64,000 nucleotides of DNA. Source: Heliocidaris erythrogramma (lineage: Eukaryota; Echinodermata; Echinoidea; Camarodonta; Echinometridae). Under the pieces are notes generated by a model. It had not been told where the DNA came from, did no database searches, and saw nothing but the letters and a program-made list of their open reading frames with translations. This document shows positions 6,851 through 55,542 of the stretch, piece after piece (the stretch's first letter is position 1; every line of letters starts with the position of its first letter). The stretch covers positions 48,085,580 through 48,149,579 of the forward strand of contig CM046856.1 of the NCBI GenBank assembly GCA_025617745.1, written 5' to 3'. Made by a program: the position numbers and the translations under genes.

Positions 6851-6860
6851 ATTTACAGCA

Positions 6861-8334: not shown

Positions 8335-8420
8335 ATACCGGTTCCGGTTCGGATACCGGTTTTTGCCGGATATCCGGTTCGGATATCCGGTTCGGATACC
8401 GGTTTTTACCGGTTATCCGG
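8335..8420. repeat. GGATATCCGGTTCGGATACC minisatellite in gag (element 1)
   Basis: Short tandem repeat rich in the self-complementary words GGATATCC, CCGG and GGATACCGGT, about 86 bp. The homologous array in element 2 is longer (about 148 bp). Units of 21 bp keep the reading frame and encode heptads of the type IRFGYPD. Confidence 0.85.
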
Positions 8421-9535: not shown

Positions 9536-9965
9536 TTGGAACTGTCTGTGTCGACAGCAATAGCCACCAATGCTAGGAGGAAGCTTATGCTTTCCTCTCT
9601 GGGCAGTGCGGATGCGGACATACCTGCCCTCCTGGCCAGGGTCCCGCACTCCGGCCTTCACCTCTTTGGAGGTAAGGGGCCTGATGTGATTCAACTTGAG
9701 GTTGATTCACGCAAGCAGGCGACGGAACTTCTGAAACGCCTTAAGTCCTCGGCTCCTAAGCCGCAGGCCCAGGCTGTCTTTCCGCCTCCTAGACGCGGTG
9801 GCGCTTCCAGCTGCCCCGTGCACAGGTGCGCCCCGAGCGTTGGAGGAGAGGGTTGGCGGCCGTCTTCAGTACCTTCTCGCCTGGGAAGGAATTACCGACG
9901 ACGTTTTCGTGCTCCCCTTCGTGCGAGGAGGCTTCTGCATACTTTTCGCAAAGCCCCTCCCACAC

Positions 9966-11560: not shown

Positions 11561-12585
11561 CGTCCGGCGGCTCTACATTGACCGCCTGGCCGCTATTGGG
11601 GAGGAAGCGAGGACTCTCAGAGAGAGCCTCCCAGTTCATAGTCCAGAGCAGAAGAGTTTCTACCCGAGCTGTTGTCAACTCGAGTTTAGAAACCTTCCAT
11701 GCTTGTTGGGGAGAAGGGGTTTGTTTTCCCGTTTCTGCCCCGGTGGGTGCTTTTACAACAATTTTCCTTATTACTCCTTTCGATAAGGGCAGGGCCCTCT
11801 CTAACTTTAGTGGTTACCGGTCCGCTATTACTGCGGTTCACCTTGGTTTTTTTCTGATGGTTCGGGAGTTTCAATCTCTCCCTTCCTGACTCATTTGCTG
11901 AGGTCTTCCTTTGACACGCCCAGCAAATCGCCAGTTGACTCCTGCATGGAGCCTTCCTTGGTTTTGGACGCCTTGGCCAAACCGCCCTTTGGGCCGTTCT
12001 GCAAAGCGTCGTTACACCATCTCCCGATTAAGACCACCTTTCTCTCTCTACGGCCCCCGGGCATATCAGATGGGAAAGGCAAGGTGTACGTCTTGTCCCT
12101 CGACCTTCGTTATTGCCAAGAATCAGACAGATTCTTCTGGCTTAATCGAAGTGTTCTTGAGTGCTCTGTCGGAATTCTCTTCCGTCATGGAGGATAAATC
12201 TTGGTGCCCTGTTAGGGCTCTCAAATGGTACTTGGATAGGACTACGGTTGTTTTCGTAAGGATGATCAGCTCTTCTCTTTTTCCATCACCTTTATTCCCC
12301 AGCATCACGGGAGACTATCTCCCGTTGGATTGTCGAGGCTATCCAAGCTGCGGGTTTGGAGGCTCTCCTGTCTGGGAAGCCTCCCAGAGCGCATGACACT
12401 AGGAGTGTTCTACCTCCTGGGCGCTTTGTCAGGTTCATCCCTTTGGAAGACTTTTGAGGGCCGCCTTTTGGCGTTCCCCTACTTTCTTCACATCCTTCTA
12501 TCTTAAGGATGCTCCTTCGGGTGAGGTTGGATTTGAAACCTCTGGGTTGAGAGCTGCTTCGTCGTCTCTGTCTGCCCCGCGTTAG
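11561..12585 (+). pseudogene. DIRS element 1 tyrosine recombinase, broken and lacking the first catalytic Arg
   Basis: Pieces in different frames match the YR of elements 2 and 3: QSRRVSTRAVVNS, KPPFGPFCKASLHHL, CPVRALKWYLDRT and a C-terminal stretch ending at the TAG at 12583-12585. At about 12040 a 45 bp in-frame deletion relative to element 2 (30840-30884) removes the segment holding the first catalytic arginine (GQRRS). The HxxR region near 12390 is also frame-shifted. The enzyme would normally integrate the circular DNA copy. Confidence 0.88.
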
Positions 12586-12632
12586 TTACTCCCGTCCTGG
12601 GACATGCCACCCGGGTTTTTATCCGTGCTATT

Positions 12633-12727
12633 CTAGCAAATAGGTAGATACATCGATTTATTGCTGTAAATCAAGAAAATTATAACTAATTTTGTTATTT
12701 ACTAGATAAATCTATGTATCTACCTAT
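12633..12727 (+). repeat. DIRS element 1 internal complementary region (ICR)
   Basis: The left part (CTAGCAAATAGGTAGATACA... to GCTGTAAAT) is the reverse complement of the element's left end, and the right part (CAAGAAAATTATAACTAAT... to ACCTAT) is the reverse complement of its right end. Together they spell the junction of a closed circle. In the DIRS-1 model the ICR templates completion of the ends and circularisation. Confidence 0.95.
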
Positions 12728-12786
12728 GTCCCTCCCTCCAGCCCCTCTCCTTGTCTGACATGTCCTAGATTCTGTCTCTGACTGCT

Positions 12787-12935
12787 CGGAAGAGGAAGAG
12801 TATGGCGGTGGCGCGTTTGGATTGGTGGACGGGGAGTACGCGCGCGCAGGCAGGGGCTGCGCGTTTTAGACTTAGGTTTTCTCGAATGACGGCATAGTTT
12901 GGGAAACTAGCAAATAGGTAGATACATAGATTTAT
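12787..12935 (-). repeat. DIRS element 1 right ITR
   Basis: Inverted copy of 6861-7009 with one mismatch near the outer end. It carries the same two private variants as the left ITR of this element (CCAATCCAAACGCG and GAGAAAACCTAAG when read as the left ITR). Confidence 0.93.
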
Positions 12936-12974
12936 CTAGTAAATAACAAAATTAGTTATAATTTTCTTGATTTA

Positions 12975-25227: not shown

Positions 25228-25646
25228 TTAAAGGAGAATTAACCCCTGAGTACAAATTTACTTATATGGAAAGGTGTAGTATATTCCTACTTATTGGCCT
25301 AAATCATTTTCCAATGAGATATCAGAAAAGGGTATAATAAAGATATTCCAACACCCAGTATCGTCTACTACTCATTTACATGGGGGCTGCCATTTTCTTG
25401 CTGATTTGGATTTGTACATGAACCATTGAGAAATGTTCCGGTCAGGAAGATATTTTGAATCCAAGACCTAAATTGATTTTCTTCATTACCTAAAATCCCA
25501 TATGTGACGAAAAATATAAAGTGGGTGTTTACATGATTTATAAAAATTAAATCTTTATAATGATACTTTTAAATTGTCTGGTTTTGCTTAACAAAAATCT
25601 ATTTTCTTGGGTTTGCCAAACAGAGCAGAGCATAATATTTACAGCA

Positions 25647-25795
25647 ATAAATCGATGTATCTACCTATTTGCTAGTTTCCCAAACTATGCCGTCATTCGA
25701 GAAAAACTAAGTCTAAAACGCGCAGCCCCTGCCTGCGCGCGCGTACTCCCCGTCCACCAATCCAATCGCGCCACCGCCATACTCTTCCTCTTCCG
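25647..25795 (+). repeat. DIRS element 2 left ITR
   Basis: 149 bp, inverted match to 31630-31778 with the same single outer mismatch as in element 1. It differs from the element 1 ITR at two places (GAGAAAAACTAAG, CCAATCCAATCGCG), and both variants are present in the right ITR as well. Confidence 0.93.
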
Positions 25796-26252
25796 TTCTC
25801 GCCCGTCAGAGAAGTGACATCTATGAAGCTAAGTCTTAACCTAAATTGCGAGATTTTTACCTCCAAAAGCATTTTTGGTTGCCTTTCGCAATAAAAATCC
25901 CGTTCACCATGTTTTCACATTCATTTTGGTGTATCGGATTTTTCCTGAGTCAACCTCCTTCACGGTAAATTAATGAAATTACTTTGCCGTTTTTCCTCAC
26001 TTTCGGGGCTTTATTCACAGACGGTGTACTAGTACACTGTGTCGGGCTGCCCCCCGTGTCTGTAGGTGGTTGATTCAACGCGCTTAGACAAGCGGTCTTA
26101 TCAAAACGTTGTGTCTCCGTAATAGGAGTTTATTCCCACTCCGACTAATGTGAGTTGGTTGTTACCCTTTTATAGATCTATATTGTTTGTAATAATAAAT
26201 TTATTACCAAATATGGGTTTCTATATTTGTTTGCTTGTCTTTATTTTCAGCC
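25796..26252 (+). promoter_or_regulatory. DIRS element 2 5' leader
   Basis: Homologous to 7010-7469 of element 1. It ends in TTTATTTTCAG (26240-26250), two bases before the gag-like ATG at 26253, again like a splice acceptor. Confidence 0.5.
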
Positions 26253-28500
26253 ATGTCGAGGTCTCCGTTTCGGCTGGCGTTCCCCAGTATTTAAATACTT
26301 ATAAGGGGACTCGCCCAGCCTTGGAAGGGTTGGCTGCGAGATTTTCATCTCGCACCAACATTATAACTTCCCCGGAGCCTCGACCAAGGTAAGTTAGGGC
26401 CTGCCTTGTGTACGGCTCGCCCCGTTATGAGTTCGTCGTCTGTTCTGTCGACCAACTCATGCGGGATATACCGAGAGAGTGAGTCCTGAAACATGGCCAA
26501 TACCTCTCTCGAAGAAGAGACTTGTATAACGGTGAGAGTGAGTGCCTAACCCGTCCAATACCTCTCACCGATAAAACTGTGGGTCTACCCCAGCCCACAG
26601 TTCGTCTCGCTCGAGCTGCACTTCTCGCTCACTAGCCATAGATGTTGTTCGCTCAGGGGTCGGCTCTCTTTGTCTCTCTCCGCACGCTTCTAATCCAAGC
26701 AAGGCGGGAAAGAGTAAAGAGAGTCGTGATCTTCCTAATGTACCCAGTACAAAGGGTTTACTACGGAAGCGGCGCCCGTTTTCAAGTGGGTAAAGGGAGC
26801 GGTCACGTGACCGCCTGCCCAGAAACGTAGGCGCCTGAGTACTGCCCAGCCAGCAGGCGGGGCGGACTCTCTCCCCTTGACATCGACTGTGTGTTCACCT
26901 CATGTGTCAGGGGGGCCAAGAAGAAGAAGGTTAGCCCCCAAGGGGCGACTACTACTTCTGAGTCGGGCGTCTCCCATGAACTTCTGAATTATCTGAAGAT
27001 CATTGTGGAGTGGAGTGGTTGGTCAGACTTTGTGTCCGTACCTCCCACCACGCCCGACTCCAACACCCCCCCCCCCCCCCGGGGGAGGGGGGATACCTGT
27101 ACCCACCAACCCGGGTCCGGTTCGGATACCGGATATCCGGTTCGGATACCCGGATATCCGGTTCGAATACCCGGATATCCGGTTCGAATACCCGGATATC
27201 CGGTTCGGATACCGGTTTTTACCGGATATCCGGTTCGGATACCGGTTTTTACCGGTTATCCGGCTAGGAAGACTGGTTTTCCCTTGTTTATCACCACTGC
27301 ACCTAGTGGGTGGGGATCCGGTTCCTTTATCAGGTATCCGGCTCATTGTGTTTGGTCTCCAACACACAAGAGCCTTGCCGCCCAACTTCGGGCGTCTCCC
27401 GACCACGTTCAGCTTTGATCGTCCGGTCGGGGCTACTCCCATTCCAGCGGCACTAAGTGCTCCGCCTGGGGAGGAATCCTGGGACTACCTAAACCGCCCT
27501 TCTTGGGATCAGGTTTCTCAGTCCGGATTTTCGGAGGATGATGCCTCTTCACAGGTTGAGATTACACTCAAACCCTGCTGGAGAAATATCTTCCCGACAC
27601 CTCTTTTCAGATTCGGGCCGATCCGGGACATCCGTCTCTCCTTTTTCAAGGTGAGCGTCCCTCCAAAGGCATCCCTCTTACGGAGGACTTAAGCGAGTCT
27701 ACATGACTTCGCCTCACAGCCTCTTTCATCTTTGGTAGGGCCCGTCCCTCGGCCAGGGAATTCACTTTCTCTCAACAAGACACTCTCGATTATTTTACGA
27801 GAAAGTCTTGTTCCAGTGACCTCCTACATGTAGGTGGTAGGCTTGGTGTCAACTTTCAGAGTGCACCTTACGCCAAAAGGGAGAAGTTCCCGTCCTTGAT
27901 GGAAGCTCATTCCAGGACTGGCCTGAGGCTGACTGCCTACTTGGGTACGCTCCTTTCCCTACGCTAGGAGCCAGGAACTTGAGATGTCCGACTCGGACAT
28001 CATGTTCCTACACGAAGCCCTCTTGTCCTTGACAGGCTCGTGGTGGTCAAAACTGTCTGTGTCGACAGCATAGCCACTAATGCCAGGAGGGAACTTGCAC
28101 TTTCCTCTCTGGGCATTGCGGATGCGGACATACCTGCCCTCCTGGCCAGGGTCCCGCACTCCGGCCAACACCTCTTGGAGGTAAGGTGTCTGATGTGATT
28201 CAACTTGAGGTTGATTCACGCTAGCAGGCGACGGAACTTCTGAAACGCCTTAAGTCCTCGGCTCCTAAGCCGCAGGCCCAGGCTAGTTTTCCGCCTCCTA
28301 GACGCGGTGGCACTTCCAGCTTTCAGCCTCTCGTGCACTGCAAGTTCAGCCCAGTGCCCCTCACTACAGGGGGCCAGGGCGGAGCCTTCTCCTCGAGGTA
28401 GGAGAAGGCATCGTCGCGGTCGGGGCCGTGGTTCGGCCCGGGATTCGCGGCGAGTGCGCCCCGAGCGTTGGAGGAGAGGGTTGGCGGAGCCTTCCGCTGC
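26253..28500 (+). pseudogene. DIRS element 2 gag-like ORF1, broken
   Basis: ATG at 26253 gives MSRSPFRLAFPSI and a stop; the shifted frame continues LNTYKGTRPALEGLAARF to a donor-like AAG|GTAAGT at 26386-26394. Further pieces (26891-27418, 27003-27692) contain the GGCCAAGAAGAAGAAGG basic patch also present in element 1 and the 21 bp minisatellite. The C-terminal part at 28380-28480 is Arg/Gly-rich (RGRRRHRRGRGRGSARD), typical of a nucleic-acid-binding tail and more complete than in element 1, where this stretch is deleted. Confidence 0.78.
27117..27264. repeat. 21 bp minisatellite in gag (element 2, expanded)
   Basis: Units of the form CGGATATCCGGTTCGGATACC, four nearly perfect, followed by variants with GGTTTTTACC spacers. 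The unit length keeps the frame, giving the heptad IRFGYPD/IRFEYPD. The word GGATATCC is self-complementary, so each unit can fold. It is about 60 bp longer than in element 1. Confidence 0.88.
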
Positions 28501-29560
28501 AACCCGCCTACATATCGCCCCCTTTCTAGAGCACATCTCCTCCGAGATTCAAGAGCTGCTAGAACAGGGCGCAATCGAAAGGGTAAGAGACCACCCCCAT
28601 CTGTGTCTCTCCCTTATAATTCCCAAACGCTCGGGGAAGCTCAGAATGATCTTGAATATGAGGGTCATCAATACCTTCATTCCAAGAGACATTTCCGCAT
28701 GGAAACTTTGGCCTCCATTCTTCCGGCGATCATATCGCCCCCCTTTCTAGAGCACATCTCCTCCGAGATTCAAGAGCTGCTAGAAAAGGGCGCAATCGAA
28801 AGGGTAAGAGACCACCCCCATCTGTGTCTCTCCCTTATCTTATAATTCCCAAACGCTCGGGGAAGCTCAGAATGATCTTGAATATGAGGGTCATCAATCC
28901 CTTCATTCCAAGAGAGCTTTTTCCGCGTGGAAACTTTGGCCTCCTTTCTTCCGGCGATCAGACCGTCAGATGTGGCCATTTCGGTAGACTTGAAAGATGC
29001 TTACTTTCACATACCGATACACCCTTCTTCAAGGGACCTTCTAGGCTTCGCCTTTCAGAGCGAAACCTTCCGGTTCAAGGCCTTACCTTGTGGCCCGAAA
29101 CCGACTCAAGTTTTTACTTGAGTAGTCTCTTCCCTAGCCGCTTTCCTCAGGTATCGCGGTCTGAGACTTTTCACTTGCATGGACGACTGGCTCCTGGTGG
29201 CGAGCTCTGTGTCCGTCTTTCAGTCACGCATGGACCTACTTCTCCGTACTACGCAAGAAGTATGATTCATAGTCAACTGGGACAAGTCGGAGTTGACTCC
29301 TACCCGCAGACCCATTTTCCTGGGTGCGGAAATAGACATTGTGAACCAACTTGCCCGCCCCAGTCGGGAGAGAGTTCTAACTATTGTCTTACTGGCTCGA
29401 TCTCTTCGTCGCTTACGTCGAGTTCGGGCAGGCCGATGGCTCCAGTCCTTGGGCCACTTATCGAGCCTTGTAGATGTCCTCAAAGACTATCGGCTTCATA
29501 TGAGGCCTTTCCAGCTTCATCTGCTGAAGTTTTTCCAAGCCCAGTGTAGACTCGCTCAAG
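28501..29560 (+). pseudogene. DIRS element 2 reverse transcriptase, broken
   Basis: RT blocks EHISSEIQELLEKGAIERV, GKLRMILNMRVIN and SVDLKDAYFHIPIHPSSRD are readable, the last in the frame open at 28927-29121. The catalytic loop at 29176-29187 reads TGC ATG GAC GAC (CMDD), where element 3 has YLDD: both aspartates are kept but Tyr-Leu is changed. The internal duplication and frameshifts prevent a continuous protein. Confidence 0.9.
28513..28960 (+). repeat. ~220 bp tandem duplication in RT of element 2
   Basis: Two direct copies (28513-28732 and 28733-28960) each contain CTAGAGCACATCTCCTCC, GCAATCGAAAGGGTAAGAG, CTCGGGGAAGCTCAGAATG and GGAAACTTTGGCCTCC, and end in TTCCGGCGATCA. They differ by several substitutions and a few small indels, so the event is not the most recent change. 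Element 1 has this segment once. Confidence 0.9.
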
Positions 29561-30200
29561 GTGTGGATTCCTCTATCCGAGGAAATCAAACGCCTGCTTA
29601 TCCCCTGGTCGAATGAGTCGTTCCTTCTTCAAGGGCAAGTCTCTTTTGGACCAGGTGGTCTCGGGGGACTGGTCACACCTGTGCACCTTACCCCACATCA
29701 ATATGTTGGAATTGATGGCAGTCTTCATGTCCGTTTTTTTTTTTTCGAGAACATGATTGTAGGTCACTCCGTCCGGATTTTGACGGACAACACTACTGTT
29801 GCTGCCTACATCAACAGACAAGGCGGGACTCGTTCCACTACCCTGAACGATCTAACCGCCAAACTTTGGAAGTGGTGTCGGTCTCACCGAGTGATTCCGA
29901 TCGCCTCCTATGTTCCCGGGCGGGACAATCTGATTACAGAATTTCTGTCCCGGGGCATGTGTCTCCCCTCCGAGTGGCCACTGAACCGAGAGGTCTTCGA
30001 CACCTCTGTTCAGTCTGCGCCCCTCTGGAGATAGACCTGTTTGCGACAGCTCTCAATCATCGCCTCCCGAGATACTGCCCTCGGGTGCGAGATCCGGAAG
30101 CTTGGGCCCTCGATGCGTTCTCCCTTCAGTGGAAGAACTTCCGGGGTTACGCCTTTCCGCCGGTCTCCTTAATCCCTCAGGTCCTGGGGTAGATTCAGGA
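29561..30200 (+). pseudogene. DIRS element 2 RNase H and methyltransferase-like region
   Basis: A frame open at 29561-30034 contains ILTDNTTVAAYINRQGGTRS and PIASYVPGRDNLITEFLSRG, matching the RNase H part of element 3. The following block (EIDLFATALNHRLPRYCP, GYAFPPVSLIPQVLG) is in another frame (29866-30192) and corresponds to the DAM-like methyltransferase region of DIRS elements. The expected TDASxxGWGG stretch at the start of RNase H is not seen, so a small deletion there is likely. Confidence 0.82.
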
Positions 30201-30299
30201 GGATCAGGCGTGGTTTCTGCTCATAGCACCTTGCTGACCGAGGAGACCTTGGTTTCCTCTTCTTCTGTCTCTGCTGGACGGTCGGCCTCTCTCCCTTCA

Positions 30300-31428
30300 C
30301 CGGAGAGCAGACCTCATAGCTCAGCCCCTGTCGGGGATCCTCCACCATCGCCCGGCGGCTCTACATTTGACCGCCTGGCCTCTATCGGGGAGGATGCGAG
30401 GACGGCAGGACTCTCTGAGAGAGCCTCCCAGTTCATGGTCCAGAGCAGAAGAGATTCTACCCGAGCTGTTTACATCTCGAGATTAGAAGCCTTCCATGCT
30501 TGGTGTGGGGAAATGGGATTTGCTTCCCGTTCTGCCCCGGTGGGTGCTATTGCAGATTTCCTTATCGCCCCTTTTCGATAAGGGCAGGTCCCTCTCTACC
30601 AATCGTGGTTACCGGTCCGCTATTGCTCCGGTTCACCTTGGTTTTTTTTTCTGATGGTTCGGGAGTTTCTAACTCTCCCTTCTTGACTCATTTGCCGAGG
30701 TCTGTCTTTTGAAACGACCAGCAAATCGCCAGTTGACTCCTGCGTGGAGCCTTCCTTTGTTTTTGGACGCCTTGGCCAAACCGCCCTTTGAGCCGTTGTG
30801 CAAAGCGTCTTTACACCATCTCTCGATTAAGACCGCCTTCCTCGTCGCTATTGCTTCTGGGCAGAGGAGGAGCACTATTCAGGCTCTCTCTACGGCGCCC
30901 GGGCATATCAGATGGGAAAGGCAAGGTGTACGTCTTGTCCCTCGACCTTCGTTTATTGCCAAGAATCAGAAGGATTCTTCTGGCTCAATCGAAGTGTTCT
31001 TGAGTCCTCTGTCAGAATTCTCTTCTGTCAAGGAGGATAATTCTTGGTGCCCTGTTAGGGCTCTCAAATGGTTCTTGGATAGGACTAAGGTTTTTCGTAA
31101 GGATGATCAGCTCTTTCTCTTTTCCCGTCACCCTTATTCCCCAGCATCACGGGAGACTGTCTCCCGTTGGATTGTCGAGGCTATCCAAGCTGGGGGTTCG
31201 GAGGCTCTCCTGTCTGAGAATCCTCCAAGAGCGCACGATACTAGGAGTGTTTCTACCTCCTGGGCGCTCTTTCTGGGTCCTCCTTTGGAAGACATTTTGA
31301 GGGCCGCCTTTTGGCGTTCCCCTACTTCCTTCACATCCTTCTATCTTAAGGATGTTCTTTCGGGTGAGGTTAGCTTTGCAACCTCTGGGTTGAGAGCTGC
31401 TTCGTCGTCTCTGTCTGCCCCGCGTTAG
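30300..31428 (+). pseudogene. DIRS element 2 tyrosine recombinase, catalytic half open
   Basis: The N-terminal core-binding part reads LSERASQFMVQSRRDSTRAV (up to about 30578) and then changes frame twice near 30580 and 30705. The C-terminal catalytic part is open for 239 residues (30709-31428) with GQRRSTIQAL (first Arg), AHDTRSVSTSWA (HxxR), FWRSP and the nucleophile Tyr in SFYLKD. All catalytic residues of the YR family are therefore present in this half, although the whole protein is interrupted. Confidence 0.9.
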
Positions 31429-31475
31429 TTACTCCCGTCCTGGGACATGCCACCCGGGTTTTTATCCGTGCTATT

Positions 31476-31570
31476 CTAGCAAATAGGTAGATACATCGAT
31501 TTATTGCTGTAAATCAAGAAAATTATAACTAATTTTGTTATTTACTAGATAAATCTATGTATCTACCTAT
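31476..31570 (+). repeat. DIRS element 2 ICR
   Basis: Same structure as in element 1: the reverse complement of the left end joined to the reverse complement of the right end through GCTGTAAATCAAGAAAATT. Confidence 0.95.
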
Positions 31571-31629
31571 GTCCCTCCCTCCAGCCCCTCTCCTTGTCTG
31601 ACATGTCCTAGATTCTGTCTCTGACTGCT

Positions 31630-31778
31630 CGGAAGAGGAAGAGTATGGCGGTGGCGCGATTGGATTGGTGGACGGGGAGTACGCGCGCGCAGGCAGGGGC
31701 TGCGCGTTTTAGACTTAGTTTTTCTCGAATGACGGCATAGTTTGGGAAACTAGCAAATAGGTAGATACATAGATTTAT
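31630..31778 (-). repeat. DIRS element 2 right ITR
   Basis: Inverted copy of 25647-25795, with one mismatch near the outer end. Confidence 0.93.
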
Positions 31779-33511
31779 CTAGTAAATAACAAAATTAGTT
31801 ATAATTTTCTTGATATGCAGCATGCATTCTGACTTTTCAAGTCCCATTATCCGAAAGCAGGTGAATGCATAGTTTGCCGCTATAGATGCTCAGGGAAGAA
31901 GCATCCATAAAATTTGAATTAATTTGCTCCGTCCATTGCGTCACAGTATCTAGAAAATAGATTTATATTAAGCGAATATCGATTTTCAACAGAAATATAT
32001 AAGGAAATCTTCAGTTTAAAAATAAATTGACATATCTATTCTATATTTTAAATCTCAAATGGGTTTTTAATTTTGAAAAAGGCAATTGGGCATTTGGATT
32101 AAGAAAATCTTCTTGTACACATAAAAAAAATGGCAGCCCCCATGTATTGCTAGCAGACGATACATATTGCTAGCAGATGATAAATTTTGCTCAGAAAATC
32201 TTGATTCGTATCGATCTCGTATATTTTGACGCGAAGCCATATAGTCTAACAAGTAGGAATAAATAACACCTTTGAACACTATCGTCTTTATTGTTTGAGG
32301 TTAATTCTCCTTTAACGTAAAACCTTTGGAATTATATGAAATAATGTAAAACCTCAAAATAGAAGGATCATTGTTATTCATGTGAAACATCAATAATGTA
32401 ACTACTGGTAAATGTGGTATATTGTCGCATTGAGTTTCTTGAACAGATTTTTAATTTTTTAAAATTGTATTTTGTTGTATTGCATGTTATTAATTTGCAG
32501 TTTATGCTGCGACAAAAACACGTTTGTAGTGGGAAGGTACTTCGATGTTTCACGCTTCTGTAATGTGTTCGAAAAGATTAGATTGCTTTTGAATAGTATC
32601 TAGAAGTGGACAAATATCAACCACTTGAAATGAAGAGTCGTTCATAGCTATGTGTCACATAACAATCATGAAAATGATGTTCTACATTTAATTCATTGTA
32701 GTAAAGTTAAAGGATATTAACCTCAAAATATAAATTTGCTAATATTCAAAAATGTAATCATTCTTTCTTGTTGTCCTACATAGTTTTCCATTAAAATATA
32801 TGAGATGGGTATAAATCAACATTTTCACAACAAAATATATTGTCTGCTAGCGATACCTGGGGGCGGCCATTTTCTTTTCTTGTGTACATCTACCTAAAGA
32901 TATTTTTAATCCCTTTGCAAAATTATCTTTCTTCCTCATACAAAATCCCATTTGAGAATTAAAATATTTAACAGATATTTACATATATTCTAAAAATGAA
33001 AATGTGTTCTATATTTCTTTGAAAATTACTATTTTACTATTAATAGAAATCTATTTTCTTGATACTATGACGTACGCGACAGAGTAAATTAATTCAAATT
33101 TATGGATGAAACTTTCCCAAGCGTCAGTTGTGACATACTATGAATTCACCTGCTTTGAGATAATGGACTTCAATAATCATAATAAATTATGTTCTGCTTT
33201 GCCAGGCAAGCCCAAGAAATTGATTTCTATTTAGTAAAACCAGAGAATTTAATTTTTTTTTTATAAATTTCAAATTTTAGAAAAATACACTTGTAATGTA
33301 GTTTCCATCATATATGGGGACTTTTTGTAATGAAGAGAAGCAATTTAACTCTATAGGATTAAACATTTCTTTCTGACTGGAACTGTTTCCAATGGTTCAT
33401 GTACGACTCCATATCATCAAGAAAATGGCAGCCCCCATTAAAGTGTTAGCAGACGATACTGTGTGCTAGAATGTCTTGATTTAAACCCTTTTTTGATATT
33501 TTATTTCTTAA

Positions 33512-45845: not shown

Positions 45846-46142
45846 TTGATAGAAAGGGGCAATGAGATACTGAATGGTCAGCTCAAACAACTTACAGAGT
45901 CAAGAACTGTGACAGAGAGCAGTGGAGATTTCGAAGACAGAGAGAGAGAGAAAGAGAGAGGGGGGGTAAGGGGTGGGGGAGTGAAAGATTTGATAGAGAA
46001 GAGAGTGAGATGTGAGACTCAGAATGGGGAGCTCAAACAACTTACAGAGTCAAGAACTTTGACTGAGAGTGGTGGATATTTCGAAGACAGAGGGAGAGCG
46101 AGAGAGAGAGAGAGGGGGGAGGTAAGGGGTGGGGAGTGAAAG
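45846..46142. repeat. ~155 bp tandem repeat, target of DIRS element 3 (left part)
   Basis: Two units share CAGCTCAAACAACTTACAGA, GTCAAGAACT-TGAC, ATTTCGAAGACAGAG, a GA-rich tract and GTAAGGGGTGGG-AGTGAAAG. A third unit continues after the DIRS element at 55416 (ATTTGATAGAGAAGA, then GAGCTCAAACAAATTACAGA). The unit-unit junction at about 45985 preserves the empty target GTGAAAGATTTGATAGAG. Confidence 0.85.
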
Positions 46143-46152
46143 ATTTACTGCA

Positions 46153-46311
46153 ATAAATCATATATACCTACCTATTATGCCTGTAGTCTTGACTACGGGA
46201 CCCCTTCGAGAATTATCACACATGTGTCACAATATTGTGCGCACCCCCCGTAATCCTATTGTCCCCTTCGCCACTCACGCGCGTCAATACGCTACGGCCA
46301 TCTTCCTCTTT
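46153..46311 (+). repeat. DIRS element 3 left ITR
   Basis: 159 bp, inverted match to the two-part right ITR (52156-52236 plus 53448-53528). The match is perfect by eye except for a small difference in the TATATA stretch near the outer end. Confidence 0.92.
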
Positions 46312-46735
46312 CTTGCTCGCCCCCGACGAGTTAGGACGTATAGTCACAGCGCTCCTGAAATCAGGTCGTATAGTATCTTTTTGGTGCGCTTTTTCACATA
46401 GTTAAAGCACTTTTAGGTACCTATATTCGTTTAGATTATAGTACTTTGTGTTTTATTAGTCACTCTTGCCGATTGCAAGGGATTTTTTGATTCCCTTTCT
46501 TGGCATTTATTTCTCTCTTTCACGGTCAGCCCCACGTAGATATTTCCGTGTTTGCGGGTGTTTCCGTTTGTCACTGAGCCTTCGGGTTCGGCGTTTATTC
46601 TTACGGTTTTTAGGCTGTGAAAATTTCTTTAGTGCGTATCTCCCAAATAATTTTACCCTTATTTACTGCATTCAGTTGAAGTATTTCTTATTTTGAAAAA
46701 AAAGTATACTTTATTGTCTGTTTTATTGCAGTGGT
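46312..46735 (+). promoter_or_regulatory. DIRS element 3 5' leader
   Basis: Non-coding, T-rich leader before the ORF1 ATG. It ends in CTGTTTTATTGCAG (46719-46732), a typical 3' splice-site sequence three bases before the ATG. The position is equivalent to that in elements 1 and 2 despite no obvious sequence conservation. Confidence 0.5.
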
Positions 46736-49008
46736 ATGGATTCGGAAGAAGAAGCAGCTAGGTCAAGGAGACCTGCTTCTTCCGAAGAGTCGTCTAGCAA
46801 GACGACTCGGCCTTCCAGAACTCCCCCGAGTACTGCGGTACACGGGGGAGGGAGGAGGGCTAAGGGTAAGTTGCCTAGTGGTGTTTCCTTGCAGAGTTTG
46901 CCAGTCTCGGAGCTTGCGGCTTCGGGACGGGTGGCGTTAACTGAATCGGGATTGTCAACTCCGAAGCCCGTGGTTTCGGGGTGGGTGGCGTCAGATTCTA
47001 GTGGTTTGGATATCTCGAATCCAATCCCCCGGTCGCTGAGACCAGAGGGGGGGGGGCTGTTGTTTCCCGTACGGTAGCGTTCACTCGCTCTGATCCGTTA
47101 GGGGAGACGCGCCCCACTACTGCAGGGCAGCCCACGGGCTTAGTCCATGTTGGTCTGGGTTCTCAAACCCTAGCCCCCGGCAAACGCCATATGGGGGAAC
47201 GAGTACTTCCTGGGCTGTCTACATTGCCAGCTAATGGGAATGCTCGAGCTAACAATTATGGACGCTCTTCGGAGCAACAGGTGTTTTCACCTGAGTGCGT
47301 GACTACTAGTGCTCCCCTATTGCTGCTTTCGAGCGGTCCAATAGCGGGTTCACACGCCTTTAGTAGTCATCGGGCACATACCGAGTCATCTCGGTCTGCC
47401 CACGCACTGGGAGCTTTTAGCTCCCAACCCAAGGCTACTGCATCTTCTTGCTTAGCCAATATGGGTGATTTGGGCGATTCTCTAGGCTTACGCCATGAGC
47501 GCTCCAATCCCTTTATGGGAAGTGAACGCCCCTTTGCGGAGGGATCGGTTTGTGTTTCCGAAGAGGCTTCGGGGATCCGAACGAATCCGATTAAGCGTTC
47601 TAAGAAAAGGGTTTCGGCTACGACTTTTGTCGAGCCAGCCAAGAAAAAGGCTAAGAAGAAGGCTAAGAAGAAGGCAAAAAGTGGCAAGGCTTTGCCGGCC
47701 TCTTGCCCGTCTGGCCTGGCTAACCCAGCTAGCTCCTCTCAAGCTGACATGTTCAGTATGATGCGGGCTTTTGCTCAGAATCAGGGTTGGTCCTTTGTAC
47801 CGGCTACTTCAACCCTGACTTCTGTCCCTATTCAGGGATCTCGCCTTGAGTCTAATCAGCCTTTTGTGATTGATTCCTCTTTGTCTGAGTCGGATTCGCA
47901 TGTGCCTCCTATTCCCGCGGCCCTTGGGGCTCCGCCGGGCGAGGAGACTTTTGTTGAACCATGCGGGGCTCTGCCTGCGGAGGCCTTTGTTAGTGCTCCT
48001 TTGTCTCATTCCACTCGGGTGGAACCAGATTCGGATGTGGCTTCTCAAGCTTCGGTTCCTGAATCGCTTGGGCAGGCGGAGTCTCAATCGCTTGCTCTTC
48101 GCGGGGTAGAAGCGATTGCTTTGTTGTCCAAATATCTCCCTGAATTTCAGTCAACCCGCGCGCAGGGTTCGACTTCGCGTTGGAAATTTAAGCAGCAGGA
48201 TTCCTCTGAGGGTATCGCTCTTGAGGAGGTTTTCAAGCTGGAGTATGACCGCATTGAGGCCGCGCTGTTGATTAAGCGCTCTAATGCGGTCAAGGGTAAG
48301 GCCTTTGCCTTTTGTTCTCAGGACCAAGACAGCTTTTTTAAGGCTAAGACTCTGTCTCCTGAGATTTTGGAGGTTGGTCGTCGCTTACGGGCGACTAATC
48401 CGCTTACCTCCGCCGCTTTCAAGGCGGAGGATAAGATCTGGTCTAATATTGAAAACCAGGTTAGGTCGGGGATGCGTTTGTCGGCGTTTCAAGGGTTTCT
48501 CTCCGACCTTAGGTCCAGGGCGGAGGAGTTGAATGTTACCGATGGTGACAAGCTGATTATTGACGACCTGTTGCATACTCTTTTTTGTCTGCAGTGGTCG
48601 CAGCTTTCCACCGCAGCTGCTTCGGCTACGTTCCGTCGCAGGACCTCGGCTCTCTCGGCACTGGGTGTTAGAGAGTCGGGCATTGCTCAACTTCTCCGAG
48701 ATGTTCCGTCTCGGGGTCCTTCGCTTTTTGGTGGTAAATTCGCTACGGTTTTTCAGAGAGAGATCGATGCGCGTAAGGAGATCTCGGATATGACTAAGCA
48801 GTTTCACACTAGCTCTAAGCCAACGCGGGCCCCTGTTCAGCGTAGACCTGCTGGTCCCGTTTCGGGTCAACGCAGTCGCGTGTCTAGGGTCCCGCCTCCT
48901 GAGCCACAGCCAGCTCCTTCTCGTGGGAGAGGGAGTCGTGGCAGGGGCATTTCGAGAGGTACTCGTGGTAAGGCGATGGCTTCGCAGAAGGCCAAGCCTG
49001 GGTTTTGA
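46736..49008 (+). CDS. DIRS element 3 ORF1, gag-like protein (one frame change)
   Basis: Starts MDSEEEAARSRRPASS at 46736. This frame closes at 47077, but the +2 neighbour frame is open from the G10 tract (47047-47056) through 47191 to the TGA ending at 49008. A single-base length change in the poly-G tract is the simplest explanation. The product would be about 757 residues: an acidic N-terminus, a Ser/Pro-rich region, a lysine-rich KKKAKKKAKKKAK patch (near 47640-47690, nuclear-localisation-like), a conserved helical part ending LLRDVPSRGPSLFGGK, and an Arg/Gly/Pro tail (RGRGSRGRGISRG). No zinc knuckle is seen. By position and tail it is the DIRS gag-like nucleic-acid-binding protein. Confidence 0.82.
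47047..47056. other. G10 tract at the frame change in ORF1
   Basis: Ten consecutive G bases where the ORF1 reading frame moves from the ATG frame to the long downstream frame. Could be a genuine mutation, a sequencing or assembly length error, or a slippage site. Confidence 0.75.
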
Positions 49009-50132
49009 TGTTTTTCCCCGAGCGCTTGTTCAACCGAATGTGGTAGGTGGCCGTCTTCACGCGTTTCTCCCCGCTTGGGAGGCCATCTCCGGGGACGCGT
49101 TTGTTCTCTCCGTCGTGCGAGACGGATTCTTCATAGATCTTTGCGCTTCGCTCCCCGGAGGGGCTATAAGAATTCGGTCACCTCCCATGTCTGCCCTGTC
49201 TCGATCTCATGCTTCAAAGGAGATCGAGTCTCTTCTGGAAAAGAGGGCTATAGAAAGGGTAAGAGACAGGCCGTCTCTTTCCCTTTCTCCAATATTTGTT
49301 ATTCCCAAGCGCTCGGGAAAACTTCGTTTGATACTGAACCTAAAAAGGATAAACAAATTTATTCCTCCGGTTCATTTTCGGATGGAGACTCTTGCCTCCA
49401 TTCTTCCGTTGATCAAAAGGGAAGACTACGCGGTCTCGATAGATCTCAAGGACGCGTACTTTCACATTCCCATTCATCGCGCATCTCGCGATCTTCTGGG
49501 GTTCTCCTTCCTCTCGGAGACTTATCGTTTTCGGGCTCTTCCCTTCGGGCTGCGCCCGGCCCCTCGGGTTTTTACTCAAGTTGTAGCGGTGCTAGCGGCC
49601 TTTCTGAGGCGTCGCGGCCTGCGGTTGTTTTGTTACCTGGACGATTGGCTTCTCCTTGCGGAGTCGCGCGATCGTTTGTTGGACGAGACTCGTTTGCTCG
49701 TCTCTCTTACTCAAGACTTAGGTTTCCTAATAATTTGGGAAAAGTCAGAGTTAGTCCCCACTCGCAGCCCAGTTTTTCTGGGGGCGGTGTTAGACATAAG
49801 GAATCAGTTAGCTCGGCCCAGTCGAGACAGGATTCTCACCATTGTCTCTGCGGCTCGCAAGCTCTTGCTGGCCAGAAGAGTCTCGGCCAGACAGTGGCTT
49901 CAGTTTCTAGGTTATCTAGCCAGTCTAGTCGATGTTTTAGAGGACTGCCGGCTCCTCATGAGACCCTTTCAGAGACATCTCCTCAGGTTCTTCAAGCCGG
50001 GAAAAGACTCTCTTTTGGTCTGGATTCCAGTACCAGTAAAGATCAAGTCTCTTCTCTCTTGTTGGACGAGCGAGGTGTTTCTCGCGCGAGGCAGGTCCTT
50101 CTCTGCCCCTCTTCCGTCGATATCGGTTTTCG
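48923..50132 (+). CDS. DIRS element 3 reverse transcriptase (frame 1 of a split RT-RNase H ORF)
   Basis: The frame overlaps the end of ORF1 by 86 bp, so the true start is uncertain; DIRS RT is often expressed by frameshift or re-initiation. Conserved text begins GGRLHAFLPAWEAISGDAF. RT motifs: GKLRLILNLKRINKFI, SIDLKDAYFHIPIH (catalytic Asp at residue 174 of this frame), LPFGLRPAPRVFT, YLDD at 49634-49645 (residues 238-241), LGAVLDI. All expected RT blocks are in order and intact. At 50132 an extra G shifts the continuing RNase H into the next frame. The enzyme copies the element RNA. Confidence 0.9.
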
Positions 50133-50960
50133 ACGGACGCCTCTCGGTTGGGGTGGGGAGGACACTGCAACGGCAGCACGGTTGCGGGGGATTGGTCTCA
50201 TCTTGGGACTCTTCCTCATATCAATGTCCTGGAGTTTATGGCAGTTCTGTTGACCTTGCTCCATTTCAGAAGTCGACTTCTCAGTCGTTCGGTTCTGATT
50301 CTCACGGACAATGTTACTGTGGCGGCATATATCAATCGGCAGGGAGGCACTCGTTCGGTTGCCCTGAATGCCCTAGCAGCTCAGCTGTGGAGGTGGTGTC
50401 GTCGCATGGCAATCACACCCGTGGCCTCTTTCATCCCCGGTCGGGAAAACCTCATTGCGGATTTTCTGTCCCGGGGCAGGTATCTTCCATCGGAATGGAT
50501 GCTCCATCCGGAGGTATTTTGCCGCATTCGCAGTTGCCTAGGTCCACTGGAAGTGGATCTATTTGCGTCGGTGCTAAATCACCAGCTGCCGAAGTATTGC
50601 TCCCGTGTTCGCGATCAGGGAGCATGGGCTCTCGATGCTTTCTCCCTCAGCTGGGAGAACCTTCAGGGATTCGCCTTTCCTCCCTTCCAACTGATTCCGC
50701 GTGTCTTGCGGAAAATCAGGGAAGATCGGGCGAGGGTGCTTGTAATAGCTCCCTTTTGGCCCAGGAGGAATTGGTTTCCGGAACTTATGAGCCTTCTAAG
50801 GGCTCAACCGTTAGTTCTCCCGTTAAGAGCGGATCTGGTGTTACAGCCCCTATCGGGGATTCTTCACCACAATCCGGAGTCTCTTCATTTGACTGCTTGG
50901 CCCCTGTCAGGGAATCTGCAAGACAGTCGGGTCTCTCTGATAGAGCCGCGGACTTTTTAA
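50133..50960 (+). CDS. DIRS element 3 RNase H plus methyltransferase-like region
   Basis: Directly after the putative inserted G the frame reads TDASRLGWGGHCNGS, the usual start of RNase H in these elements, then LEFMAVLLTL, SVLILTDNVTVAAYINRQGG and FIPGRENLIADFLSRG. A second block (EVDLFASVLNHQLPKYCSRV, DAFSLSWENLQGFAFPPF, APFWPRRNWFPEL) corresponds to the DAM-like N6-adenine methyltransferase domain typical of DIRS1-like retrotransposons. RNase H removes RNA from the RNA-DNA hybrid; the role of the methylase-like part is unknown. The frame stays open to 50960 and overlaps the YR frame. Confidence 0.85.
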   Translation, partial: TDASRLGWGGHCNGSTVAGDWSHLGTLPHINVLEFMAVLLTLLHFRSRLLSRSVLILTDNVTVAAYINRQGGTRSVALNALAAQLWRWCRRMAITPVASFIPGRENLIADFLSRGRYLPSEWMLHPEVFCRIRSCLGPLEVDLFASVLNHQLPKYCSRVRDQGAWALDAFSLSWENLQGFAFPPFQLIPRVLRKIREDRARVLVIAPFWPRRNWFPELMSLLRAQPLVLPLRADLVLQPLSGILHHNPESLHLTAWPLSGNLQDSRVSLIEPRTF

Positions 50961-51934
50961 TGTCCAGTCGTAGGGTTTCTACTAGGGAAATTTACAATTC
51001 CCGTCTCTCGGTCTTTTTCCTTTGGTGCAAAGAGAGAAATCAAACCCCTTCTAAGGCTCCTATTGGTTCAATTGCGGATTTCTTAATCTCGTTATTTGAC
51101 AAAGGGAGATCTATTTCTACTATCCGAGGCTACCGTTCGGCGATCGGGGCCATTCATTCGGGTTTTTCGGATGGTTCGGGGATTTCCAATTCCCCGCTAC
51201 TAAGTGGTTTGATTTGTTCGTTCTTTCTGAAACGACCTTCGTTTTCTAAGTTAGTGCCGTCTTGGAGTCTGCCTAAGGTCCTGGAGGCCTTGGCGAAACC
51301 TCCTTTTGAACCGTTAGGTGAAGCTTCGCTTCATCATCTTACGGTTAAGACGCTCTTTTTGGTAGCTATTGCCTCTGGGCAGAGGCGCAGTACTCTTCAT
51401 GCTCTCTGTCTTACTCCTGGTCATGTTCGCTGGGAGAGAAAAGGTGTTAGATTGATTCCTAGGGCTTCTTTCGTTGCCAAGAATCAGACAGCTACCTCCG
51501 GTCCTGTTGAGATTTTTCTTTGTCCGCTTTCTAACTTTTCTTCGGTGCGTGAGGACAAAGTTTGGTGTCCTGTTAGGGCTCTCAAATGGTATATTGATAA
51601 GACTAAGTCTTATCGTAAGGATGATCAGTTGTTCCTGATCACTAGAGAGCCTTTTTCTCCTGCCTCTCTTGATTCCATTTCTAGATGGATCGTTGAAGCT
51701 ATTAGGGCCGCTGGCACAGAGGCTCTTTTATCCGACAGTAAGCCTCGTGCTCATGATACTCGTAGTGTCAGCACTTCTTGGGCTCTGTTTCAAGGTGTGG
51801 CGCTTGTTGATATTTTGAAGGCTGCTTATTGGCGTTCGCCCAATTCCTTCATTTCTTGCTACCTTAGGGATATTCCCGCAGGTGAAGCTTTGTTTGCGTC
51901 AGCCACCTTGAAGGCCGCTGTGTCTTCTTTGTAG
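50640..51934 (+). CDS. DIRS element 3 tyrosine recombinase (intact frame)
   Basis: The YR frame is open and contiguous with the RT frame, because the RNase H region happens to lack stops in it. The start is approximate: recognisable YR sequence begins near 50900 (QSGLSDRAADFLMSSRR). N-terminal core-binding domain: STREIYNSRLSVFFLWC, GSIADFLISLFDKGRSIST. Catalytic domain: GQRRSTLHAL (Arg codons 51383-51388), PRAHDTRSVSTSW (His 51752, Arg 51761), YWRSPNSF and the nucleophile Tyr at 51860-51862 in SCYLRD. All catalytic residues are present. The enzyme inserts the circular copy by site-specific recombination and explains the absence of a normal target-site duplication. Confidence 0.92.
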
Positions 51935-52001
51935 TCTTTGGTGTAATCCTATTTCCTTCTGCTTGAAACATGCCTCCCGGTCTTTGAGTTGGCGCTGGTC
52001 T

Positions 52002-52096
52002 GGCATAATAGGTAGGTATATATGATTTATTGCAGTAAATTTGTAAAATCAGCACTGATTTTCTTATTTACTATATAAATCTATATACCTACCTAT
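52002..52096 (+). repeat. DIRS element 3 ICR
   Basis: GGCATAATAGGTAGGTATAT... to TGCAGTAAAT is the reverse complement of the left end (46143-46181); the following TTGTAAAATCAGCACTGATT... to ACCTAT is the reverse complement of the right end. It holds the palindrome AAAATCAGCACTGATTTT. It shows what the right end looked like before the two nested insertions. Confidence 0.95.
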
Positions 52097-52155
52097 GACC
52101 CTCCCTCCTTCCCCGCTCCTTGCAAGCAACATGTTTCTTCTTGGGGTTGCTCGCA

Positions 52156-52236
52156 AAAGAGGAAGATGGCCGTAGCGTATTGACGCGCGTGAGTGGCGAA
52201 GGGGACAATAGGATTACGGGGGGTGCGCACAATATT
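52156..52236 (-). repeat. DIRS element 3 right ITR, inner part
   Basis: Inverted match to the inner half of the left ITR, from AAAGAGGAAGATGG to GTGCGCACAATATT, with no differences seen. It is interrupted here by the element at 52237-53447. Confidence 0.92.
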
Positions 52237-53447
52237 ACGGAGCTTTCTAACATCAGACCGAACGTGGTTGTGCAGAGCTCGTTCGTTCTCTGGCAGAAGC
52301 GCTTTCGATTTTCACACTGTACTACGAGGGCTTCGGCGATATCACGTGACCAAATGTTCAGATCAGCGCTAGCTATCGGCCTCGGGTGACCAAATTTACA
52401 TCGCGCGCTAAATCCAAAATGGCTAACTTCAGACGAACAAATATATCACAATCAAGGTGGCAAAAAGAGCGCCTAATCAGACCAGCGATCATGTTAGCCT
52501 TAGATGTGATATGCTGAAAGTGACCTTCAAAACTAAGTGTAGACTCAATTAACACACCTAGGACTAGGTCTTTTATAATGTTGTCTTGTTGAACATTTTC
52601 AAGAAATACTGAATGCCATCTTTTTTCAAAAATTATTTGATTATTAATATTATTATTATTCAAAAACTGATTCATGGATTACTCTGAAATTTGGTAGATG
52701 TCTATTTTGCAATGTTTTCATCAAGATCTGAAAAACTCGGACAGTTTAATGAAGTGGTTTATGAGATAGAAAAATCTTGCTGTCTCCCAAACTAGATCTA
52801 GGCCTACTGCTAGAATCTACAGTAGGCCTAGGCCTAGGCCTACATGACATACATGTACATCTAGTGACAGTGTTTGTCACTAGACTAGTAATTTCCTAGA
52901 CATGCCCATAAACACAAAAATTAATCGTACCAATGTTCATAAACGAGTTTTGCGAGTTATTTTGGCAAATACCAGCGCTTATACCGATAGCTAAAACAAT
53001 ATTGGCTACACTCAGCCTACAGGCTACTCGCCCGACGGGTCGCCCGCCAGCCACGGCCGCCAGCCTTGTCGATTTCCGCTGGGAAATGAGACTTTTAACT
53101 CACTCAAATTTTAATGATCTGAGAAACGATTTCATGAAAAATATGATCGCATGATGATTGATTTATATTTTAAGCTCTCTCAAAAATCTATTTTGTGATG
53201 AAAGAAGTAGAAAAAACAAAATAGACCTAGGGGCCTACCCTATACCGATTGTTTGGTGGCAGTGAGGGACGAAGAAATTGCACTCACCTTGTCGTTTTCA
53301 CCACAACGCGGAATCAGTTAAATTTCCCCCAAATCCCGTCGTCAGAATTGGAAGGCGACGTGAGAGCAAGCCTTCGGGCATGCGCAGTGGCAAAATATGA
53401 CGTCACTCGTAGTAGCTTGACGTTCGGTCTGGCGATAGAAAGCTGCC
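52237..53447. mobile_element. nested DNA transposon-like insertion in the right ITR
   Basis: 1.2 kb insertion between TATT (52233-52236) and TATT (53448-53451). Terminal inverted repeats of about 28 bp: AGCTTTCTAACATCAGACCG on the left and, inverted, AGCTTTCTATCGCCAGACCG on the right, continuing AACGT. No transposase is seen; the interior carries a LINE fragment on the minus strand and an AGGCCT-rich patch (52800-52850). The superfamily is not clear from a 4 bp duplication alone. Confidence 0.82.
52418..52675 (-). pseudogene. LINE reverse-transcriptase fragment
   Basis: On the minus strand a frame reads KDLVLGVLIESTLSFEGHF, ITSKANMIAGLIRRSF and HLDCDIFVRLKLAI. This matches the C-terminal part of non-LTR retrotransposon RT (pattern LGV.ID..L.F..HI..I..KAN..LG.I.R.F..L....F..L). 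Only about 60 residues are recognisable. It is enclosed in the inverted-repeat element, so it was either captured or inserted there. Confidence 0.72.
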
Positions 53448-53528
53448 TATTGTGACACATGTGTGATAATTCTCGAAGGGGTCCCGTAGTCAAGACTACA
53501 GGCATAATAGGTAGGTATATAGATTTAT
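53448..53528 (-). repeat. DIRS element 3 right ITR, outer part
   Basis: Inverted match to the outer half of the left ITR: TGTGACACATGTGTGATAAT, GGGGTCCCGTAGTCAAGAC, GGCATAATAGGTAGGTATA. The element then continues GATTTATATAGTAAA and is cut again at 53536. Confidence 0.92.
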
Positions 53529-53703
53529 ATAGTAAACTAGAATTTAATTCGTCATGAGGACGAATTAGGTGGTCTGTCCTTCAATTTGTACGATCATGAT
53601 TGTAATCAGGATGATCATAATAATGGGGAAATACTAAACTGAAGATAGGATGTCAAGAATGCCATGAATGGAGGTCCTTCTTGAGGACGGGAATGTAGCA
53701 AAA

Positions 53704-53836
53704 TGTGTAACGGTCATTGTAAAATGATTATGGTGATGATGATAATGGTGATTATGATGATTATAATGATATATGATGGCGATGATATAATAGCGATGAT
53801 GATCATGACGGTGATGATAATAATGATGATGATACA
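53704..53836. repeat. degenerate (GATGAT)n microsatellite
   Basis: Imperfect ATG/GAT trinucleotide array inside the Helitron-like insert. The Met/Ile/Asp-rich frame is a by-product. Confidence 0.9.
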
Positions 53837-54032
53837 GGATACTTGGCAGATTAACCCCTTAGCTCTAATACAGGACAGGAAATCACAATTTCCATAGGGT
53901 TGTACACAAAACTACTGCACACTACTTTCTAATAGACATAATACGGGAAAATAAGGCAGTTTATTACATGATTTGTGATTTTTTATGTTATACTAGTCGA
54001 AGAGGATGGTAAAATGACAGGCAAAAAGAAGC

Positions 54033-54118
54033 AAAAAAAAAAAAAAAAAAATCGGCCCCGGGGATCGAACCAGGTACCTTGACCATGGTAGTCATGTGCT
54101 TTACCGATAGACCAGAAT
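54033..54118 (-). pseudogene. tRNA-like relic with poly-T tract
   Basis: On the minus strand: an A-box-like TGGTCTATCGGTAA (54101-54114) and a B-box GGTTCGATCCC (54061-54071), then CCGGGGCCGA and an uninterrupted T18-19 run. The spacing fits a tRNA or the head of a tRNA-derived SINE, but the 5' acceptor strand does not pair with the 3' one, so it is not a functional tRNA gene. Confidence 0.6.
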
Positions 54119-55415
54119 ATTTCCCATAGAGATAACACGTAAACGAAAACGGGATTCTCAAATCACATCTTGCACTGAAAAATTGGGCATGATCCCGACA
54201 TCTGATCAAAAATTGGAGACCACACTTGTAAAAGCTTATAGTCTCAGCTACAACATATTAAAATCTGGAAGAAAATAGACCAAAAATAACTGAGATACTG
54301 CTCAGAGAACGATGTCATGTAGATTCATGATTCGAAAAAAAGTCATCTTCCATAGACATAACACGCAAATAGGGAAAATTCTGACATGGCGTCTTTAATT
54401 GAAAATTTCACTGTGATGACGTCATCAAAATGAAAAATGGTGGCAAGTAATTTTGTAGGAAATTGCCTCAGCTATGACATATCAAAATCTTGGCGAAAAA
54501 AGACCAATAATTACGAATCTAGAGCCAAATTTGCTTAAATGTGATGACGTCAAAACATGAAAAATGGAAATTTGGATTTCTGGTGCCATTTTGATGACGT
54601 CATAATGTTTATAAGGGTCAAATGATACATGAAATCATATCTATGATTCATACCCTACCTGATGATGACAAAAAATTGGGGGATTTATGGACTATTTAAA
54701 GAGCTAGAGTTAATTTTGTAGAGGCATGTTTTTGCACGTTTTTACGTTATTTTCGCCATAGATGCGCGCACGGATTTTGAAGTTTGACGCGCCCGTACGA
54801 CCTTATTATTGATTGAAATTGATTCCAAGTTGATGGAAATGATGAAGAAAAGTGTCAAGATTGCAAATCAATCGAAAAAACAGCGTTTTAACGTTATTTA
54901 CGACTTGCGCGCGCGTAAAACGCGCGCGCGGACACTTACGCACGGACATTTTTGAAATGCTCAAAATGACCTGAAACGTGTGCAGACTTGATCCTACGTG
55001 ATTTTGAGCATTTTTAAATTTTGACGCGCGCGTACGCGCACATCCTGACCTCTAGATGACCTGTGAGGACATTGCTTGATGACTCGTCATTTGAAGTTTA
55101 TGTGATGTGAATATAGTTTATTTTTGATGATCGATTATGAAGATATAATCGATCTTGTAAATTTACAAAATGGCGTCTTGATGACGTCACGATGACATGA
55201 TGACCTCCAAAAGCTTAATGGATCATCTCCATGATTGACCTCATACATGACATGAAACTCGATGATATTGACCTGGCCAATTTTGAGATATGGTGGCCAC
55301 AAGAATTTGTTATAAAAAGAAAGAAATAAAAAGAAGAAAAATCTTGACAAAATTAAAAGGTGATCTGTCGATACCGACAGACCACCTAATAAGAAAATCA
55401 GTGCTGATTTTACAA

Positions 55416-55542
55416 ATTTGATAGAGAAGATGGTGAATGAGACATGAGACTCAGAATGAGGAGCTCAAACAAATTACAGAGTCAATAACTAAGAGTTTCA
55501 AAGATAGGGGGAGAATGAGTGTGTGTGTGTGTGTGTGTGTGT

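Follow-up and report, generated by a model that had tools for sequence, protein, structure and literature searches.

Insertions of DIRS1-like retrotransposons in Heliocidaris erythrogramma carry the core of the element on the left and the core of the target on the right

We analysed a 64,000-nucleotide stretch of the Heliocidaris erythrogramma genome (CM046856.1; the whole stretch is called the window here), which contains three mobile elements and the sites into which they inserted. The elements belong to two subfamilies of DIRS1-like retrotransposons, family A (elements 1 and 2) and family B (element 3). They were assigned as such because they combine a reverse transcriptase, a tyrosine recombinase, inverted terminal repeats (ITRs), a right extension and an internal complementary region (ICR). 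The reverse transcriptase was found in the 1003-aa open reading frame (ORF) of element 3 (RVT_1, E 3.7e-19, above the Pfam family cut-off). The last third of this ORF can be aligned to proteins from Diadema, Lytechinus, Patiria and Apostichopus, and among the 120 of 281 hits listed, the highest-scoring ones with an organism name belong to sea urchins. R, HxxR and Y, the catalytic residues of tyrosine recombinases, are conserved in element 3 in the alignment with echinoderm relatives; across the nine aligned sequences the Arg column was invariant (9/9), and HxxR and the Tyr near the C terminus were present in 8/9, being absent in P0049. No Pfam family matched the recombinase piece of element 3, some of the aligned relatives do carry PF00589, and the recombinase of element 2 matched PF00589 with an E value of 6.2e-4, short of the curated cut-off. 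The 605-aa gag-like ORF of element 3 had no Pfam match, and a 270-aa ORF matched the methyltransferase family PF12237 weakly (E 0.0083, below the cut-off). The terminal repeats are inverted and are accompanied by the right extension (inverted repeats I1, I2, I5 and I8), and the ICR unites the complements of both tips across a single short core. Membership of Ngaro or PAT was rejected, as it requires split direct repeats and the terminal repeats here are inverted.

The junction strings of the three elements were located by exact match. In element 3, the left junction GTGAAAG-ATTT-ACTGC lies at 46136, the right junction TTACAA-ATTT-GATAGAG at 55410 and the circle joint ACAA-ATTT-ACTGC of the ICR at 52032 on the minus strand, and the empty site GTGAAAGATTTGATAGAG is kept at 45981 in the adjoining tandem unit. 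A reading made from the sequence only had claimed that these are DIRS insertions whose ICR records the circle joint and whose insertion point can be read to the base from the adjoining empty site. All of its strings were recovered exactly, which bears out these claims, and only the coordinates of the empty site, given as about 45979-45996, shift to 45981-45998. Element 1 has the junctions CCTTT-ATTT-ACAGC at 6851 and CTTG-ATTT-ATACC at 12970, so that ATTT stands at both sides as that reading held. Element 2 has CATAAT-ATTT-ACAGC at 25637 and CTTG-AT-ATGCAGC at 31813, the latter also written CTTG-ATATGCAGC, and the family A ICR joint CTTG-ATTT-ACAGC was found in elements 1 and 2 at 12663 and 31506 (minus strand). 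Outside the elements, ATTT occupies 1.4% and AT 9.8% of positions; the chance of ATTT, ATTT and AT at the three right junctions is about 2e-5 as a product of these background rates, and with ATTT this rare the junction match is not due to chance. The remark that element 2 shares only AT is accurate as read, but element 2 was ruled out as an exception to the scheme, because its target read ATAT (Table 1).

Table 1. Coordinates of the elements, their cores and related features in the window
Feature	Position	Strand	Remarks
Element 1 (family A)	6851..12973	+	left core ATTT 6851-6854, right core ATTT 12970-12973
Empty counterpart within element 1 for family A copy C2:22580350	7060..7108	+	GTGTT-TTTG-GTTGCC, 100% over 49 nt
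Element 1 ICR core	12668-12671	minus	
Element 2 (family A)	25637..31816	+	left core ATTT 25637-25640, identical to the ICR version
Element 2 ICR core	31511-31514	minus	
Element 2 right core ATAT	31813-31816	+	target version; empty site with ATAT in locus L021
Empty target GTGAAAG-ATTT-GATAGAG in adjoining tandem unit	45981..45998	+	exact match; unit 84% alike across the joint
Element 3 (family B) left core ATTT	46143..46146	+	identical to ICR core
Element 3 left terminus and left ITR	46143..46311	+	inverted repeats I5, I8; blastn
Element 3 gag-like ORF, 605 aa	47191..49008	+	gag label from position alone
Element 3 ORF, 1003 aa	48923..51934	+	reverse transcriptase near start, tyrosine recombinase near end
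Element 3 ICR	52002..52096	minus	circle-joint core ATTT 52037-52040
1.2-kb insert in element 3 right ITR	52237..53447	.	imperfect terminal inverted repeats, TATT on both sides
1.85-kb repeat insert in element 3 right terminus	53538..55392	.	identical position in five other copies
Element 3 outer right tip (right extension)	55393..55415	+	matches ICR
Element 3 right core ATTT	55416..55419	+	read as the target's

To extend the junction comparison beyond the window, the genome (1.064 Gb) was searched with a 28-base pattern of the family A left tip allowing up to 2 mismatches, which gave 660 forward and 652 reverse matches. The matches listed comprise 100 places on contigs C1 and C2, every one exact, and copies were read at loci L027-L056 and in short regions at further listed pairs. 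As the pattern begins after the core, it cannot fix the core. The family A left ends number 40 (15 with the window included, 12 and 13) and the readable right ends 41 (17, 23 and 1). At L055 the left tip is doubled as a direct repeat, 30 bp apart (1461-1600); the outer tip was counted and the inner duplicate left out. L100 and L106 were left out as their regions fall short of the right ends, and L118 and L120 because they represent a single copy in its other orientation, L118 being the ICR of that copy; L108 and L114 are partnerless left ends. The copies L055/L116 and L127/L136 are in the end counts and excluded from the 35 pairs, the right core at L116 being TTTT, and two weak right-tip matches (TGAA and CTAT) were discarded as false. 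Family B left tips were matched with up to 5 mismatches.

We found that the left core was constant and the right core variable. ATTT was present at 40/40 family A left ends, and the right 3-bp core at the 41 readable ends was ATT in 19, TTT in 11, GTT in 4 and another triplet in 7. The 35 paired copies all had the left core ATTT, with ATT (16), TTT (9), GTT (4) or other triplets (6) as right core; a non-ATT right core accompanied a perfect left core in 19 pairs and the reverse occurred in none (sign test 1.9e-6, Fisher 1.3e-7). The ICR core was ATTT in 34/34 cases (some loci overlap), as was the left core of family B in 11/11, one of which (L051) is a unit of a tandem array. The left core is thus the element's own, a copy of that in the ICR, and the right core is the target's. 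The elements in the window had suggested one ATTT from the circle and one from the target; this holds where the target has ATTT, but not as a rule, since the right core varies.

The same asymmetry was seen genome-wide, where exact 21-base tips (left ends together with ICRs) numbered 977 and the first core base was not A in only 8, exact right tips followed by a non-A base numbered 257 (not individually checked), and exact ICR joints 563. The fraction of right ends lacking A comes from the sample, as right tips were counted genome-wide for a non-A next base only. The 8 exceptional tips read GTTT (three), TTTT (three), CTTT and GGAT, the last of which may be a truncated copy. No right tip lies upstream of any of them, so none is an ICR and they are read as left ends. 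Elements 1 and 3, viewed alone, look as if ATTT on both sides were a conventional 4-bp target-site duplication made by an integrase. This explanation has practically no chance of being correct and is refuted by the tabulated junctions: within the sample the right core varies and the left core does not, known empty targets bear other cores, and ATTT is the core of the ICR too. No consistent target-site duplication was found in the 35 paired copies or at the empty sites, in agreement with the sequence-only reading.

Empty sites, searched by comparing the joined flanks of the 35 pairs with the retrieved sequences of at least 1000 bases, gave the same result. That of element 2 has ATAT at the joint and is 121/124 identical in L021; that of C1:42982172 has GTCT and is 123/124 identical in the neighbouring tandem unit L052, and was found again in L051. 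The target of C2:22580350 lies inside a family A element (TTTG, 49/49, in element 1 at the place given in Table 1), and that of C1:42901861 in a family B ITR (ATTA, 93/95, in the window copy at 46143). C1:44952995 had an empty site with ATTA in L012 (48/51) and C1:45752003 one with TTTA at 54665-54714 (44/50, 88%, with a gap close to the joint). No empty site of element 1 was found among the sequences compared. With element 3 included, 7/7 insertions had ATTT as left core and agreed with their empty site in the right core, and the target core was ATTT in element 3 only, the other six differing. ATTT as a required 4-bp shared core was therefore rejected, the fourth T belonging to the element; ATTT is not shared as a rule of four bases, and the target need only offer roughly NTT. 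Comparison of the junctions of the 35 family A pairs with ICR joints and, where found, empty sites upheld the ICR core on the left and not the shared ATTT core.

Beyond the core, the 35 paired family A targets had A at -8 in 28, T at -2 in 25, T at +2 in 34 and T at +3 in 29. In family B, A at -8 was present in 5/11 and is not clear there. Two family A right flanks (L037 and L049) begin at one place in a family B-type ITR, ATTATGCC, and the left side at L049/L050 concurs (CTACCT-ATTA). This place is possibly a hot spot of self-targeting (L037, L049/L050), and these insertions recall the self-targeting of DIRS-1 described in the part of PMC5633606 covered.

The junctions show that each insertion retains a single exchange point, located at the border of right tip and core, with rare exceptions. 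Very probably the exchange takes place at this border, the left core being the ICR copy and the right core that of a target matched loosely at about NTT, and insertions follow the pattern target / ATT(T)-L ... R / (N)TT-target. The claim that such junctions are exactly what a tyrosine-recombinase crossover predicts does not stand, as a plain symmetric crossover alone does not predict the near-absence of the target core on the left. A double-stranded circle that undergoes an ordinary two-strand crossover over the overlap, with the heteroduplex resolved at random, would be in line with the circle model in the covered passages of PMC3266345; the recombinase residues are conserved, the cores of circle and target are alike, and rare left exceptions exist. 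After such a crossover the core is heteroduplex on either side, and replication without bias should give about half of the mismatched insertions a target core on the left; the observed number was 0/19 pairs, with 8 exceptional left tips against 257 right tips genome-wide. The overlap of tyrosine recombinases measures 6-8 bp, and with such an overlap the bottom-strand products would also have their initial left-tip bases exchanged and would be missed by the tip pattern. Copies that were detected through the ICR and have no left tip on the list (L029, L037, L038 and L053/L054) show the same type of right end, and none reads ATTTACAG, so such a hidden half is unlikely. Random resolution is already disfavoured by these data and appears quite unlikely; strand-biased repair would rescue it.

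We therefore weighed two processes that would yield the observed polarity. In one, the ICR would hold both ends of the complementary DNA (cDNA) side by side, one cDNA strand would be exchanged with one target strand, and replication would then fix a product with one element-derived and one target-derived core, with no random choice. A single-stranded exchange at the fixed border of right tip and core would give the left core to the element and the right one to the target, and we regard the chances of one-strand exchange of ICR-bridged cDNA followed by replication as about evenly balanced. In the other, a two-strand crossover would be followed by mismatch repair or replication that consistently favours the version of one strand. 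It yields the same polarity, and the rare exceptions, one of which has the target base on both sides, resemble an occasional failure of the bias; yet it would need a bias of about 97% or greater (8 versus 257), and we consider it unlikely.

One-strand integration by tyrosine recombinases is known from integron cassettes and CTX phage, a mode that would likewise give a single exchange point and a one-sided origin of the core; here one-strand exchange is read from junction products, and the enzymes are likened by mode only. The cDNA intermediates are reportedly linear and single-stranded, according to the title of one study. The entry of DIRS elements into the genome is described as modelled and not fully proven in the part of PMC5633606 covered.

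We further compared the polarity with published elements. In the covered passages of PMC3266345, DIRS1-like elements (DIRS-1, SkoDIRS1 and BmDIRS1) share with those described here a reverse transcriptase, a tyrosine recombinase, ITRs with a right extension, a one-core ICR, an ATT junction and the lack of a target-site duplication, and their 3-bp circular junction, most commonly ATT, is said to recombine with an identical genomic sequence. Here, by contrast, the target is matched loosely, and the core differs asymmetrically from one end to the other. Table 3 of that paper lists start and end triplets that differ in 10/28 elements; BmDIRS1, with an ATT start and an ATA end, resembles element 2. 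In our recount, which left out two elements with 2-bp junctions, the start equalled the ICR core in 7/8 informative rows (AcDIRS1, AcDIRS2, AmDIRS2, BmDIRS1, NveDIRS6b, TnDIRS1a and XtDIRS2) and the end in 1/8 (one-sided p 0.035). The covered passages of that paper do not remark on the polarity, and no paper on it was found by title or abstract, a coverage outside which the subscription papers of Goodwin and Poulter and of Cappello lie. As far as the literature covered shows, the polarity of the junction cores is new. It is possible, though short of an even chance, that DIRS elements across phyla integrate ICR-bridged single-stranded cDNA by one-strand exchange at a fixed border of right tip and core into a loose NTT target, and not by a reciprocal crossover of a double-stranded circle. 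This wider reading includes the strong A at -8 of the family A target.

Several observations weigh against the one-strand reading and the generality of the rule. The exchange of one strand is deduced from insertion products only, and the family A sample is made up of the window and of the exact tips listed first on contigs C1 and C2. The rates leave out the right cores of family B, because the query used for these extended into an ATTTG flank. All 8 exceptional tips are read as left ends, so the left rule is not absolute, and one copy (C3:9151588) has GTTT on the left and the right with ATTT in its ICR, so on rare occasions the target's base can persist at the left end. Among the published elements, AcasDIRS1, with a left and no right extension, has the opposite polarity, its end matching the ICR core (PMC3266345), and the 7/8 rows are weak when taken alone at this p value.

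Element 3 is 9.3 kb long because of two inserts (Table 1). The first is a 1.2-kb non-autonomous element that splits the right ITR, its ends (imperfect inverted repeats with TATT flanks) being read by eye; it is absent from the family B copies that align, in which 52236 joins 53448 directly. The 1.85-kb insert was found at the identical place in L009-L012 and L014. Unlike the published DIRS1-like elements in the covered passages of PMC3266345, six family B copies carry this insert in the right terminus and an ICR without it. L013 is in the mirror state, with the insert in its ICR and a short right terminus. It was rejected as an element inserted at the ICR core, as the insert sits inside the ICR, and as a one-step inversion between the ICR and right-end cores, as the loop keeps its normal orientation. 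Junctions of the insert were found 8 times genome-wide at up to 2 mismatches, seven of them known and one with unlike neighbouring sequence (by eye). L012 and L013 differ by 1.4% in the coding part and by 21.9% in the insert, so there has been either a reshuffling of termini and bodies or more than one arrival of the insert. Across L009-L014 and element 3, this discordance suggests that elements have recombined with one another or that the insert came to one site repeatedly. Should the ICR be the template of the right tip, the placement of the insert is hard to account for unless transcripts extend almost to that tip or sequence is exchanged between the ICR and the terminus. By eye, the 1.85-kb insert shows hairpins close to its two ends, one of which has CTAG, and a joint between A and T, and its other end recurs elsewhere with different flanks; Helitrons are recognized by a terminal hairpin, a CTRR end, an A-T target and no target-site duplication.

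Elsewhere in the window, a tandem array with units of about 325-335 bp occupies 42134-43256, and two pairs of inverted repeats, one nested in the other (83% and 86% complementary, about 2.4-2.7 kb apart), lie at 56888-59726 and are perhaps a DNA transposon.

The polarity of the junction cores can be read from an assembled genome with young copies, and it separates random two-strand resolution from strand-specific models of integration. It also provides a base-level rule for annotating the left and right ends of these elements, and it would explain the terminal mismatches printed in Table 3 of PMC3266345.

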